From Embleya hyalina (GTDB lineage Bacteria; Actinomycetota; Actinomycetes; Streptomycetales; Streptomycetaceae): a stretch of 64,000 nucleotides of DNA. The stretch spans positions 62,001 to 126,000 of the forward strand of contig NZ_BIFH01000035.1 in the NCBI RefSeq assembly GCF_003967355.1, read 5' to 3'. The position numbers and the translations under genes are program-made. Below the pieces are notes generated by a model, which saw only the letters and a program-made list of their open reading frames with translations, ran no database searches and was not told the origin of the DNA. Of this stretch, positions 3,729 through 16,120 are shown piece by piece; position 1 is the first letter of the stretch, and every line of letters begins with the position of its first letter.

Positions 3729-5732
3729 CTAAATCGGGCATGCGCCGGATGCGCACCACTCGTCGTAGCCGGTGTCCGTTTCGAAGGTGAGGCCGTTCGA
3801 GCGGAGAAGGAACTCGTCCTCGTCGATCCGCTCGTACGGTGCCTGATCTCGGCTCGTCTCGGGGAAGATCGTGCTCCCCTTCAGCCGGGGCATGTACTCG
3901 CGGAGGATCCTCATGAGTTCGCTCACGGTGTACTGCTCCGGTCGAATCGAGGCCGTGTACGACACGGCCTGGTCTGCCCAGAGGCGCTGGTAGAGCACTT
4001 GCACGTCAAGCTGCTGTGGCAGAGTCAGATCTGCTGCACTCTCGAAGTTGGAGAGGCAGTCGATACGGTCTGCCAGGGGGTCGAGCGTCGGTATCTCAAC
4101 TACGCCGGTGTTGGGTGCGTATCGGCAGGGTTCGATGTAGTAGCCGGCCGCGGCGTACCGTTCCATTTGCTGAACCTCGTCGGCCGCCACGGTCGAAAAC
4201 CGGACCCGCCGAATGAAGTAGGGGCTGAACGGTGCGTGAATTCCTTCGCCACTCACGCCTGCGAGCTTCGAAATCGTACCGGTGGGGGCTACCGCCCGCG
4301 TTTTGATCGGGCGCGGAATCCTCAGCTCGTTGCTGTAGTCTGCGGCGGCCTTGTCCACAACTTGCGCAAGCGACTGCAAAAGGTACGCCACCCTGGTATC
4401 GGTCGATGCCGACGAGTACCAGATACCACGCATGGCCAGGTGATCGGCAAGTCCCGTGTGGCCCACGCCGATCCTGCGGTACCGCTCGATCGCCGCCTGC
4501 GATTGCGGATCGGCGACAGTCGCGAAGGTAGCTCGAATCAGGAAGCGAACCAAAAGCCGATGAGCTTCGTCCAGTGATTCGTACTCGACATCCCCGTAAC
4601 CGTTCACGAATGCGCCCAGGTTGATACTTCCCAGCGTGCACGGTTCCCAGGCCGTCAGGGTGGCTTCCCCACAGGGATTGGTCGTGTAGACCCCATCTAC
4701 CTCGCCCTCAGCCGACAACGATGAGTTCCAAAACCCCGGCTCGCCGTTGCTGAGCGCTGCCGCAGCCAACTGCCGGAGAACCCAGATGGCCCGCTCGTCG
4801 TCGCGATCCAGGGCTTCGAAGAAGGCGTCGTCGACCTCGACCGAGATGTTCGTTGTCCAGTGGTCGGACTGGTCGCGTTTGGCGTTGATGAAGAACTCGA
4901 TGTCCAGGTCGGCCCAGTGCTTGATGGACATACGAGCGGACCGACGTACACCACCACTCATGATGCATGCCGCGATCGAATGATCGATGGCCATGGCATC
5001 CATGCCGTCGAGACGGTACCCAACCGCTGAACTCAAAGTACGGCCGACCTCCACCAGCATCCGCGCAAACGGAGTAGGTCCACTGGCCGTACCACCGAAT
5101 GCGCGCAGCGCTGCCCCCTTGGCTCGCACGCGACCTACATCGAAGACCTGGCTTCGGTCCTCGGTGGTCGGGTCGTGTGCCACACGAATCAACTCGGCGA
5201 GCGCGGCAGCCCAGCCTTCGCGGCTGTCCTCCACCGGGTAGGCGCCCGGCCAAGTGGGGTCGTACTCCGAAGAGATGAGGCCGGCGGCCAGCAACTCGGC
5301 GTAGTCGGGATGGGCCGGGTCACAAACGATGTGCACTACCGGCGCGGTCCAGACGAGCGGGTATTGCTCGAAGTACCGCTGCGAGTAGTTGCTTCCAACT
5401 CCTCCGCCCTCGGCCAGGCGAAGGAGTGTGAAGGTGAAGTGTCGCGCAGGCTCCGCCGGATCCCAGCCGGCGGCCCAACAATTGTTGAGGGCGAAGTCGC
5501 TGACGCCGCCGGCTCGCAAGTGCCGGCCGGCCGGCAGGATCCGAAACCGACCGATCTCGTTGATCAGGGCCTGCCGCTCTCCAGCTTCGATGTAACGCGG
5601 CGGCACCAGACGAAGGTTGGCGTCGACCACGCGCTCTACGGTCTCGGGCCAGGTTTCGAGGGAGCCGTCCGGCCGCTCCCGACGGTAGGTGCGCTCGTAC
5701 ACGGTCCGGGCGGTCTCGCTTGCGAAGGTCAT
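3729..5732 (-). CDS. nrdJ: Adenosylcobalamin-dependent ribonucleotide reductase (class II, monomeric type)
   Basis: 667 residues, close to monomeric class II enzymes. Reduces ribonucleotides to deoxyribonucleotides using a B12-generated thiyl radical. Visible motifs: LNNCWAAG and AEGGGVGSNYS in the N-terminal half, IMSGGVRRSARMSI, the active-site loop NPCGEATLTAWEPCTLGSIN with conserved Cys and Glu, TGTISKLAGVSGEGIH, and a C-terminal redox pair in WCASGACPI. The gene lets the phage supply dNTPs independent of the host's oxygen-dependent enzyme. It overlaps the upstream 71-residue gene by ATGA. No thioredoxin gene was seen nearby, so host reductants are presumably used. Confidence 0.93.
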   Translation of the reverse strand: MTFASETARTVYERTYRRERPDGSLETWPETVERVVDANLRLVPPRYIEAGERQALINEIGRFRILPAGRHLRAGGVSDFALNNCWAAGWDPAEPARHFTFTLLRLAEGGGVGSNYSQRYFEQYPLVWTAPVVHIVCDPAHPDYAELLAAGLISSEYDPTWPGAYPVEDSREGWAAALAELIRVAHDPTTEDRSQVFDVGRVRAKGAALRAFGGTASGPTPFARMLVEVGRTLSSAVGYRLDGMDAMAIDHSIAACIMSGGVRRSARMSIKHWADLDIEFFINAKRDQSDHWTTNISVEVDDAFFEALDRDDERAIWVLRQLAAAALSNGEPGFWNSSLSAEGEVDGVYTTNPCGEATLTAWEPCTLGSINLGAFVNGYGDVEYESLDEAHRLLVRFLIRATFATVADPQSQAAIERYRRIGVGHTGLADHLAMRGIWYSSASTDTRVAYLLQSLAQVVDKAAADYSNELRIPRPIKTRAVAPTGTISKLAGVSGEGIHAPFSPYFIRRVRFSTVAADEVQQMERYAAAGYYIEPCRYAPNTGVVEIPTLDPLADRIDCLSNFESAADLTLPQQLDVQVLYQRLWADQAVSYTASIRPEQYTVSELMRILREYMPRLKGSTIFPETSRDQAPYERIDEDEFLLRSNGLTFETDTGYDEWCASGACPI

Positions 5733-12080: not shown

Positions 12081-12398
12081 GTGCCCAGAGCCGCATCGAT
12101 TTGCCTGCGAGACGGATGCACCTCCAAGACCGTTCTGGACGGCCGGTGTAGCGACCACCAGCTCCGCAAGAGTTGGGACCGACCTTCGGCCCGCAACCTC
12201 AGCCGACCGAGCGACTTCCGCACCCGGCGGACGCGGGCCCTTGTCCGCGATCGGTGGACGTGCCAACGGTGCGGTGCCCGCACCGAGCTGGAGGTCGACC
12301 ACATCGTTCCGGTGTCCCGCGGAGGGACATGGGATCTGTCCAACCTCCTGACGCTCTGCCGGGCCTGTCACCGACAGAAAACCTACAGCTCAGGCTGA
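12081..12398 (+). CDS. HNH endonuclease (packaging-associated)
   Basis: 105 residues from GTG at 12081 with GGAGG upstream. The HNH core is clear: CQRCG, then LEVDHIVPVSRGGTWDLSNL and LCRACHRQK, where two CxxC pairs bind zinc. An extra Cys/His set (CLRDGCTSK, CSDH) stands at the N-terminus. HNH proteins encoded beside terminase genes assist cos cleavage in many siphoviruses, and position here fits that. Free homing activity is less likely. Confidence 0.9.
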   Translation: MPRAASICLRDGCTSKTVLDGRCSDHQLRKSWDRPSARNLSRPSDFRTRRTRALVRDRWTCQRCGARTELEVDHIVPVSRGGTWDLSNLLTLCRACHRQKTYSSG

Positions 12399-12468: not shown

Positions 12469-12648
12469 ATGTTCGTGTGCGATGGCCGATGCTCATCGGA
12501 TTGCATCTGCCTGCCCGCCGCTCCGCCGGTTCCCCGGCGTCAGAGCCGGGCCGCAGATCGACGAGCCTGGCGGCAGCTTGCCCTCGACGAGTTGACAGAC
12601 CTCGGTGACATCTACGAGGTACCTGATCGAATTCGCGGGGCTGGCTGA
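12469..12648 (+). CDS. 59-residue phage protein with Cys-rich start
   Basis: ATG at 12469 with AGGAG 6 nt upstream; its stop shares an A with the small terminase ATG (TGATG). Starts MFVCDGRCSSDCICLP, four cysteines in 14 residues, then a basic helix and an acidic end (DELTDLGDIYEVPD). Unknown function, but the coupling to the terminase gene suggests a role in packaging. Confidence 0.6.
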   Translation: MFVCDGRCSSDCICLPAAPPVPRRQSRAADRRAWRQLALDELTDLGDIYEVPDRIRGAG

Positions 12649-13076
12649 TGGCCGGCAGGGGGCCGGCACCCAAGCCGAATGCCGTTCGACGGAACAAGGC
12701 GCCGTACGAGCATGACCTTGTCGGCGAGACCCAGGTGGGTCGCGAGCTTCCCCGCGCCCTGGGCGTGAAGTCCGCTGGTGCCAAGCGCTTTTGGCGTACA
12801 TGGTCAACGTCTCCGCAAGCCCGGGAGTGGCAGGAGACCGATTGGGCCGAGTTGGAGCTGACCGTGGTCCTGGTCGACGCCTTCTTCCTTGGTGAGACCA
12901 AGCACGCTTCCGAGATCAGGCTTCGCGTTGCCAAGTGGGGTGCCACCACGGAGGACAGGGCGAGGCTCCGCATGACCTTCGACAAGTCGGCTGAGGCCGA
13001 CGAGGACGAACCGGCAAACGAGACCGCGGCCGACCTGGACGAGGAGCTGTTCCGCTTGCTCAACACGACTGACTGA
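12648..13076 (+). CDS. Small terminase subunit-like protein
   Basis: 142 residues: basic N-terminus (MAGRGPAPKPNAVRRNKAP), helical middle with TWSTSPQAREWQETDWAEL, and an acidic tail. The GRGPxPK start and WxxSPQAxxW pattern occur in small terminase-type proteins of actinophages, which recognise the packaging site. Position directly before the large subunit supports this. No HTH visible. Confidence 0.65.
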   Translation: MAGRGPAPKPNAVRRNKAPYEHDLVGETQVGRELPRALGVKSAGAKRFWRTWSTSPQAREWQETDWAELELTVVLVDAFFLGETKHASEIRLRVAKWGATTEDRARLRMTFDKSAEADEDEPANETAADLDEELFRLLNTTD

Positions 13077-13089
13077 ATCGAGGTGAGGG

Positions 13090-14692
13090 ATGCTCACGGG
13101 AAACATGCCGGAGGGCGTTCCTCATCCGACACGCAGCCTCGGTTACGAGATCATCCGCTGGGCTCAGCGCTACATCGTCCAGCCGGACGGAGAGAACGCC
13201 GGGGCGCCTTGGGCGTTCTCTCCTGAGCAGCTTCGGTTCGTCCTGTGGATGTACGCCATCGACGAGCACGGCCGGTGGCTCTACCGCACGTGCGCCCTTC
13301 GGCGCGCGAAGGGGTGGGGCAAGACACCCCTGTTGGCAGCGTTGGCCATCGTGGAGTTCATTGGCCCGTGCCGCTTCTCCCACTGGGATTCCCTGGGTAG
13401 GCCGGTAGGCAAGCGGGTTCCTTTGCCGCTTGTCCAGATCGCGGCCACCTCGCTCGATCAGACGGCAAACACCCGGGACATGATCCGCGGCATGCTCGCG
13501 GAAAGCCCAGCGGAGCGCGAATACGGTCTCGACATCGGTAAAGGGCTGATCCAGTTCCGTTCCGGTCGCCCGGGTCGTATTGAGCCCGTCACCTCGTCCT
13601 CGCGGGGACTTGAGGGGGCGAGGCCCACCTTTGTCCGGCCCCGACATGATCCGCTCTGTCGGGGCCGGGCTTTGCCACTTCGTTGTATGTGACGAGGTCC
13701 ACCACTGGGTTGAATCCAACGCAGGCATCTACGTATGGGAAACCCTGGACCGCAACGTCCAGAAGACCGCAGGCGCCGGCTCGCGGTTGATCGAGACGAC
13801 CAATGCCTTCAATCCCAATGAGGCGAGCATTGCTCAACGGACCTTCGATGCCGCCATGGAGCAGGGCGCTAAACGCATCCTCTACGACTGCCGTGAAGCC
13901 TCTGGGGAAGTTGACTTCCAGGACCGCGAGGCGGTCATGGCTGCTGTGGCCGAAGCCTACGGCGACTCTTATTGGGTGGACCTCGGCGGTATTGCCGACG
14001 CAATTCAAGACCCTCGAACGAGTACGGCTGTCAGCTACCGCTTTTACCTGAATCGGATTCAGGAGAACGCCGACGGATGGATGACCAAAGAGCATTGGGA
14101 TCTATGCCTGTCCGAGGCGGATCCCATACTTCCTGGCGATCAAATCGCAGTCGGCTTCGACGGCTCGATTCGCGGAGACGCAACAGGGATTGTCGGCTGC
14201 CGACTTCGTGACGGCAAGCTATTCCTTCTGGGGCTGTGGGAGAACCCGCGGACCGACCCCGACTGGGAAGTGGATGTCCTCGCGGTCGAGGCAGCCGTCG
14301 AGCGCACATTCAAAACGTACCGCGTCGAGTGGATGTATGCCGACCCACCGTACTGGCAGGAAGCCATCGGACGTTGGTCGATCGAGTGGGAAGACAGGGT
14401 GTTCGAGTACTGGACCAATAAGCCGACCCGCATGGTCAACGCCACCGAACGCCTGCGCAGCGCTGCGGCCGTTCAGGACGTCAAGCACGACGGTGATTCA
14501 GATATTCGACGCCACGTACTCAATGCGGTCACCCGCGAGGTTCCGCAGGGGCTTCTGATTACGAAGGAGTCGCCGAGGTCCAAGAAGAAGATCGACCTGG
14601 CTGTTTGCAGCATTCTTGCTTTCGAGGCACGAGCCGACGCTATTGCAGATGGGCGGATGAAGATACGACGATCCAGAGTGGTGGGGTTCTAG
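13090..14692 (+). CDS. Large terminase subunit, reading frame interrupted by a 49-nt hairpin segment
   Basis: Packaging ATPase and nuclease. The first frame (13090-13632) carries the Walker A-like RRAKGWGKTP (residues 71-80) and runs to GARPTF. The second (from 13682) continues at VVCDEVHHW, the Walker B with catalytic Glu, and has nuclease Asp motifs such as GFDGSIRGDATG. Left uncorrected, the first frame stops at 13692, so no complete enzyme results. Removing exactly 49 nt (13633-13681) gives a normal 517-residue protein with GARPTF joined to VVCDE. The C-terminal end overlaps the portal start region (TAGATG). So this prophage gene is either broken or needs ribosome bypassing. Confidence 0.85.
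13633..13681 (+). other. 49-nt hairpin insert inside the large terminase gene
   Basis: Contains a perfect 12-bp inverted repeat, 13635-13646 and 13657-13668 (CCGGCCCCGACA and its complement) with a 10-nt loop. It is preceded by codon TTT (13630) and ends with TTC (13679), both Phe and read by the same tRNA. Flanks GCCCACCTTTGT and TTGCCACTTCGT are similar, as in an imperfect target duplication. Confidence 0.75.
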
Positions 14693-16120
14693 ATGAGCGG
14701 TGCTTTCGATTCACCTCCTGATTCCCCAGAGCAGTGGATCAGGTATCTCCAAGGCAAGCTGCTGTCTTCCGCTGGTCGCTTCAAGGCCCTTGGAGACTAC
14801 TACGATGGCGAACATCAGAAATTGGTGTTTGCGCAAGCGCGGCACAAGGAGCAGTTCGCCAGCCTCTTCAACAACTGGTCGGACAACTTCACCGGGCTGA
14901 TTGTCGATTCCGTCAACGAGCGTTTGGCCATTGACGGCTTTCGGATGACCGAGGAGCTACACGCCGACAAGGCGGCCTCGGAAATCTGGCAGCGGAATTT
15001 CATGGACGCTGAGTCCAACGCAGCTCACCTTGACGCCTTGATTCACGGAGTCTCGTACGCGATTGTTTGGGCAGATAAGGACGGCCGCCCGACAATCACC
15101 ATTGAGTCGGCCGAGCATGTGGTCGTGCAGTACCGCCCCGGCAGTCGCAGGGAGATCGAGGCCGCAGCAAAGTTCTACGTCGACGATTGGGGCCGTACCT
15201 GGTCAACGCTGTGGCTACCCAATGGGGTGTACACGTTCCAGGAGGCAGGCCAGACCTGGCGACAGGCCAAGCGAGCCCGCAACCCGACTGGCGTCGTACC
15301 GGTTGTCCCCATTTCGAACCGGTCCCGTCTGACGGGGAAACCGCTGTCAGACCTCCGCGGCGTTATCCCGCTCCAAGACGCGATCAACAAGATTGTTTCG
15401 GATGCCCTGGTGGCATCCGAGTTCATGGCGTGGCCACAACGCTTTGTCACGGGCTTGGAAATCCTTGAGGACGAAGACGGTCGTCCGGTCGAACCCTTTC
15501 AGGTGGCTGTCGACAAGCTTTTGCAGGCCGAGGACCCGAACGCCAAATTTGGGCAGTTCGAGGCCGCTGATCTTTCCAACTACTGTGATCTTGTCGCCAT
15601 GCTCGTCCAGCACATGGCCTCGATTTCGAGGATCCCTTTCCATTATTTCCTGTTGAATGGTGGCCAAGCCCCGTCCGGCGAGGCAATCACATCCGCAGAG
15701 GCCGGCCTTATCAGCAAAGTTCGCGAGCGCATGCTCCACTTCGGTGAGGCGTGGGAGCGCGTCCTGCGTTTGTGCTTCGCGGTCATGGGTGACAAGAAGC
15801 GGGCCGAAGCCTGGTCCGCCGAAGTTATGTGGCGTGATCCGGAGAACCGTACCGAGGCTCAGCATATGGACGCGTTGATGAAGCTCAGTCTCATCGGCGT
15901 CCCGCGGAATCAGCTTCTGGCCGATGCCGGTTACTCCCCACAACAGATCGAGCGGTTCAAGAGCATGCGCGAAGACGACGCCAAGGACGAAATGGAATTG
16001 GCGAGGAAGTACCCCGCGCCCGTGCCAGCCGAGAAGGAAACCCCCGGCGACGAGAAAACCCAGGTCGCGAGCAAGTCTCCACAGGGCAACGCCGGCAACG
16101 CAGCGCGCGAAGCTGCATGA
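14693..16120 (+). CDS. Portal protein
   Basis: 475 residues, typical size for SPP1-gp6-like portals. Shows YYDGEHQKLVFA near the start, NWSDNFTGLIVDSVNERL, and in the middle the typical PISNRSRLTGKPLSDL and ISRIPFHYFLLNGGQAPSGEA. The C-terminal 60 residues are charged and disordered. Forms the dodecameric DNA gate at the capsid vertex and docks the terminase. Directly after the terminase gene, as usual. Confidence 0.88.
   Translation: MSGAFDSPPDSPEQWIRYLQGKLLSSAGRFKALGDYYDGEHQKLVFAQARHKEQFASLFNNWSDNFTGLIVDSVNERLAIDGFRMTEELHADKAASEIWQRNFMDAESNAAHLDALIHGVSYAIVWADKDGRPTITIESAEHVVVQYRPGSRREIEAAAKFYVDDWGRTWSTLWLPNGVYTFQEAGQTWRQAKRARNPTGVVPVVPISNRSRLTGKPLSDLRGVIPLQDAINKIVSDALVASEFMAWPQRFVTGLEILEDEDGRPVEPFQVAVDKLLQAEDPNAKFGQFEAADLSNYCDLVAMLVQHMASISRIPFHYFLLNGGQAPSGEAITSAEAGLISKVRERMLHFGEAWERVLRLCFAVMGDKKRAEAWSAEVMWRDPENRTEAQHMDALMKLSLIGVPRNQLLADAGYSPQQIERFKSMREDDAKDEMELARKYPAPVPAEKETPGDEKTQVASKSPQGNAGNAAREAA

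Follow-up and report, generated by a model that had tools for sequence, protein, structure and literature searches.

We found that a short RNA hairpin interrupts the gene for the DNA-packaging motor, the large terminase (terL), in a phage region of Embleya hyalina and in at least 28 related phages, and that this arrangement is best explained by ribosomes jumping over about 50 nucleotides of the message. Such long jumps were until now known in phages and bacteria from essentially one gene of one virus, gene 60 of T4. Although the ribosomal step is inferred from sequence comparison alone, our confidence in programmed bypassing is high, and the elements form a new, testable family.

Structure of the interrupted terminase gene

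The DNA analyzed (hereafter the window) is a stretch of 64,000 nucleotides from E. hyalina (NCBI RefSeq assembly GCF_003967355.1, contig NZ_BIFH01000035.1, positions 62,001 to 126,000 of the forward strand). It holds phage structural genes in the following order, the first three on the plus strand: an HNH endonuclease gene at 12081-12398 (PHROG 144, E=5e-21), a terminase small subunit gene at 12648-13076 (Pfam Terminase_7, E=6.5e-29), the large terminase, a portal gene at 14693-16120, a scaffold gene, a major head protein gene and a tape measure gene. A ribonucleotide reductase gene (PHROG 367, E=1e-217) lies near the phage genes on the minus strand at 3729-5732. The large terminase is open in two frames. 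The first part, 13090-13632, encodes the ATPase domain with Walker A (GWGKTP), ends with ...SSSRGLEGARPTF, and is 89% identical to the ATPase part of Streptomyces phage Ponzi. The second part, 13682-14692, begins VVCDEVHHW, starting with Walker B (VVCDE), and continues into the nuclease domain (PF20441, E=1e-10). The two frames fit when the 49 nt at 13633-13681 are skipped. This gap follows the codon TTT (13630-13632) and ends in TTC (13679-13681), which is read by the same tRNA. The perfect 12-bp stem is formed by 13635-13646 and 13657-13668, and two more pairs (G-C and U-G) extend it to the base next to the TTT, so that the stem-loop spans 13633-13670. Its minimum free energy is -31.9 kcal/mol, with a z score of -5.5 against dinucleotide shuffles. 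The sequence-only reading had pointed out the two frames, the 49 nt between two Phe codons and the 12-bp stem, and this observation was confirmed.

The gap is present in 29 of 165 related genes

Viral contigs were searched with the second part of the terminase, and a script was used to place the junction in each relative. Many relatives have nothing at this point, whereas others have a hairpin of similar size at exactly the same point. Further searches and de-duplication gave 24 gap and 86 gapless genes, a whole-genome search added one gap gene (L226; L numbers denote individual loci of relatives), and the last round added four gap and 50 gapless genes. Thus, 29 of 165 distinct genes resolved at the junction, the window gene included, carry a gap of 44-61 nt, and the rest read straight through. 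Further gapless genes from the whole-genome search, a few unresolved cases and a few small TTA-type cases are not in this count. The sequences are related by descent and the counts are therefore not independent events. The carriers are Streptomyces and Kitasatospora genomes, one Actinomadura, the window's own genome, soil metagenome contigs and phage Ponzi. Three different prophages of one genome (L013, L041 and L050; IMG genome 2933705211) each carry a hairpin gap. Streptomyces phage Success, Ibantik, Thermobifida phage P318, Samy and SpeedDemon are continuous at the site.

The take-off codon is TTT in 29 of 29 gap genes, although TTT accounts for only 54 of 377 other Phe codons in 25 of these genes and stands at the junction in 36 of 86 gapless relatives. 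The gap ends in TTC in 13 genes and in TTT in 13 genes, whereas ATC, CTC and GTC, which differ in the first base, are found in three genes of one divergent lineage. TTY makes up only 1.9% of the other triplet positions in the gaps. Gap lengths leave a remainder of 0, 1 and 2 on division by three in 4, 12 and 13 genes, respectively, and all four gaps divisible by three contain an in-frame stop, which indicates that they cannot simply be read through. In every case, skipping from TTT to the base after the last gap codon gives the protein of gapless relatives with no residue lost or added. In L283, the hairpin follows another TTT nine nucleotides further on (ETYVVF^DESH), and its gap again ends in TTT, indicating that the rule follows the codon and not the position. 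In L280 and L283, the ATPase part upstream of the gap looks interrupted by an intein (a C-terminal junction-like VPTHN^T before TGNVYDT).

A search of the window's own genome with the stem pattern returned no second copy, and a search of plasmids returned none. When a hairpin model was run over 395 family genomes, the full-length hits outside terL that we inspected, which were not all of the hits, look like isolated hairpins and are probably terminators. A DNA-pattern scan of viral contigs gave 13 hits, of which those outside terminases (L069, L070, L072 and L073) showed no coding gap. A second match of the hairpin model at the end of L064 lies in what looks like a duplicated contig end and was set aside. 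Comparison with Rfam gave only hits below the gathering scores.

Stem covariation and purifying selection

The stem starts at the first base after TTT in nearly all gap genes. A MAFFT alignment of 24 gaps was not usable for pair counts because indels differ between the arms, and a 13-sequence subset and a register-based count were used instead. In the 13 alignable gaps, 7 of 16 pairs show changes on both sides that keep pairing, which none of 500 shuffles reached, and sliding the partner by one column drops the paired cells from 96.6% to about 54% or less. Over all 29 genes, stem positions +4 to +6 are paired in 29 of 29 and +7 in 28 of 29 despite four standard pair types each. L188 (Actinomadura rubrisoli) and the L309/L312 lineage have quite different stem sequences that still pair.

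Between gap-carrying genes, synonymous differences are large while dN/dS is mostly 0.01-0.2 in both parts, indicating strong purifying selection on both. One upstream comparison (L155/L160) is higher, 0.49, perhaps because of an alignment effect of a local insertion. Phage Ponzi forms plaques and was isolated on Streptomyces lividans, and its completely sequenced genome carries a 50-nt gap in the terminase, which is annotated as two genes, "ATPase domain" (gene 42) and "nuclease domain" (gene 43). A tblastn search with the ATPase part found one place in that record, so no second, intact copy was seen.

Probable signals around the take-off codon

A purine-rich, Shine-Dalgarno-like tract, GAGGGGGCGAGG (13612-13623), ends 6 nt before the take-off codon and is conserved at the nucleotide level in the GARPTF/S-type gap genes. 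Its pairing to the anti-Shine-Dalgarno sequence, -12.6 kcal/mol against a mean of -8.2 for synonymous recodings, is stronger than in nearly all such recodings (fraction at least as strong 0.000-0.013). Pairing is also stronger in gap genes than in gapless ones (medians -12.6 and -6.8 kcal/mol, not corrected for descent), although in the other lineages the tract is weak or absent or its pairing is not different. There was no signal of an upstream 5' stem-loop and only a weak excess of structure downstream. The codon directly after the take-off codon is GTC in the window and a sense codon in all 29 genes. The protein sequence is conserved in gapless relatives as well, so that comparison does not separate out a nascent-peptide signal in the exit tunnel. 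Eight tRNA genes, tRNA-Phe(GAA) among them, lie just upstream of the gapless terL of phage Success (L061:288-1346), whereas none was found in the window.

Scattered distribution of the gap

On a quick tree of the second part, presence and absence of the gap need 14 changes, at least 10 of which are forced by well-supported branches. Such a scattered distribution is as expected for a mobile element. Close pairs such as L140 (with gap) and L148 (without gap), which are 91% identical over 300 nt, differ at many synonymous positions within about 25 nt of the junction. The gapped allele thus seems to arrive with a short flank, as by gene conversion or transfer, or the flank is selected. It has been suggested that the T4 insert protects against a neighbouring homing nuclease (PMC5009743). 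HNH genes lie close to terL in the window, Ponzi, Success and Ibantik, but a similar role here is a guess.

Probable programmed bypassing and alternative explanations

Of the two alternatives offered by the sequence-only reading, a bypass element in a packaging gene or a small palindromic insertion that killed the prophage, the former is supported and strongly favoured. In this view, ribosomes translate the first part to TTT and pause as the very stable stem enters the ribosome. The stem-loop, probably helped by the Shine-Dalgarno-like tract just upstream, would then make the peptidyl-tRNA-Phe release its weak wobble pairing with UUU, the ribosome would slide 44-61 nt past the hairpin, and the tRNA would re-pair with TTT or TTC, so that translation resumes at Walker B and gives one continuous terminase. 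Our analysis establishes the anatomy, its conservation, the covariation, the exact restoration of the protein in 29 genes, the selection on both parts and the presence in an infectious phage, whereas the ribosomal step itself, the joined protein, the role of the Shine-Dalgarno-like tract, the efficiency and any regulation are inferred.

Removal of the hairpin at the RNA or DNA level before translation, by a minimal intron or excision element, is unlikely. The scattered presence at one site and the exchange of short flanks would suit a mobile intervening element. However, 44-61 nt is far too small for a known self-splicing intron, no Rfam family reaches its gathering score, the sequenced DNA of phage Ponzi keeps the gap, and excision does not need a Phe codon on both sides.

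It is similarly unlikely that the two parts are made as separate proteins by termination and re-initiation and then assemble, as the annotation of Ponzi implies, although an in-frame ATG lies inside the gap in the window. In a predicted structure of a gapless relative (mean pLDDT 65, usable at the domain level only), the fold matches the large terminases of HK97 and T4, and the strand 181-185, the Walker B strand, begins at the junction Phe and is directly followed by DE. The gap therefore separates Walker A from Walker B inside the ATPase core and does not lie between domains. The frame-0 product ends 1-136 codons after take-off with no conserved length, and the second part has no consistent start codon: in seven related genes and in L226 a stop directly precedes the landing codon, and several others have no start near it. 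In addition, a split gene has no need for TTT...TTY or for an exact residue-level fit in all genes. Many carriers are prophages in draft genomes, and a single case would be read as an inactivating palindromic insertion or an assembly error, but this is contradicted by the many independent assemblies, the infectious phage, the purifying selection on both sides at strongly diverged synonymous sites and the compensatory stem changes.

Comparison with known bypass systems

T4 gene 60 likewise has a gap of 50 nt between matched codons, a stem-loop at the take-off codon and a joined product from two frames (PMC11194080). The gap lengths of 44-61 nt straddle the 56-nt limit of high processivity reported for gene 60 (PMC11194080). 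The present elements lie in a different gene with no known sequence relation to gene 60, use Phe TTT instead of Gly GGA, have a sense codon instead of a stop after take-off, a detail of gene 60 that bypassing in general does not require, and have a much longer GC-rich stem. They have many members, which are scattered by gain, loss or transfer, and three of them have a first-base mismatch at landing. The mitochondrial bypass inserts of the yeast Magnusiomyces capitatus are also repeated short frame-breaking inserts in genes that remain functional, with take-off and landing codons that are not always perfectly matched (PMC5009743). They occupy 81 sites with an unused codon in the A site and little dependence on context, whereas here there is one main site with ordinary A-site codons and a conserved hairpin.

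A 2016 review names a different candidate bypass in the terminases of phage Hau3 and prophage Strep C.1 (Smith et al. 2013, as cited in PMC5009743). There, only a few nucleotides, centred on the bldA codon TTA next to KGWG at Walker A, must be skipped, and there is no hairpin. Walker A of the window gene is continuous and has no TTA. Gaps of that kind (TTAG, TTAGC, TTAGGGC and others) were found in many relatives, which widens the Hau3-type candidate bypass. TTA-containing gaps of 4-7 nt are located at GWG^K or GWGK^T in L015, L018, L019, L037, L040, L043, L062 (phage P318), L076, L178, L179, L183, L185, L186, L188 and L226. Some have matched codons around TTAN (TGG-TTAT-TGG in P318, TGG-TTAG-TGG in L178, GGC-TTAG-GGC in L185), and others differ only in the first base (GGC to AGC, AAG to TAG). 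L259 and L265 have 7-nt TTA gaps with matched codons (CGA-TTAC-CGC and TCC-TTAG-TCC, respectively) a few codons before Walker B, and the junction of L268 has a 2-nt offset at TTT TTA, which fits -1 slippage or another TTA-linked recoding. Six of the 29 hairpin genes carry both kinds of gap. In L188 (3001-4634), terL has three discontinuities: the TTA type at Walker A, the hairpin gap, and a further frame change near YADP that also lies at a TTA. The hairpin gap differs from the TTA type in place, size and anatomy, and our literature searches, which covered only open-licence papers, found no mention of it; the hairpin family thus seems undescribed.

Long bypassing in phages and bacteria rests on one gene, although counterparts had long been presumed to exist (PMC5009743). 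It is somewhat more likely than not that a mobile family of hairpin bypass elements, carried by actinobacterial phages, inserts at a preferred Phe codon in the packaging ATPase and is tolerated because it programs efficient bypassing of 44-61 nt. In evolution, the element behaves like a unit that is repeatedly gained, lost or transferred at one preferred site. It would be the first multi-member family of long bypassing outside mitochondria, and may protect the most conserved part of terL from homing endonucleases or tune terminase output. The finding also affects annotation, since such terminases are now called as two genes or as broken. Twenty-nine diverged natural examples, with natural variation in stem, gap length, landing codon and even position, allow the rules of bypassing to be read from evolution and tested in Streptomyces.
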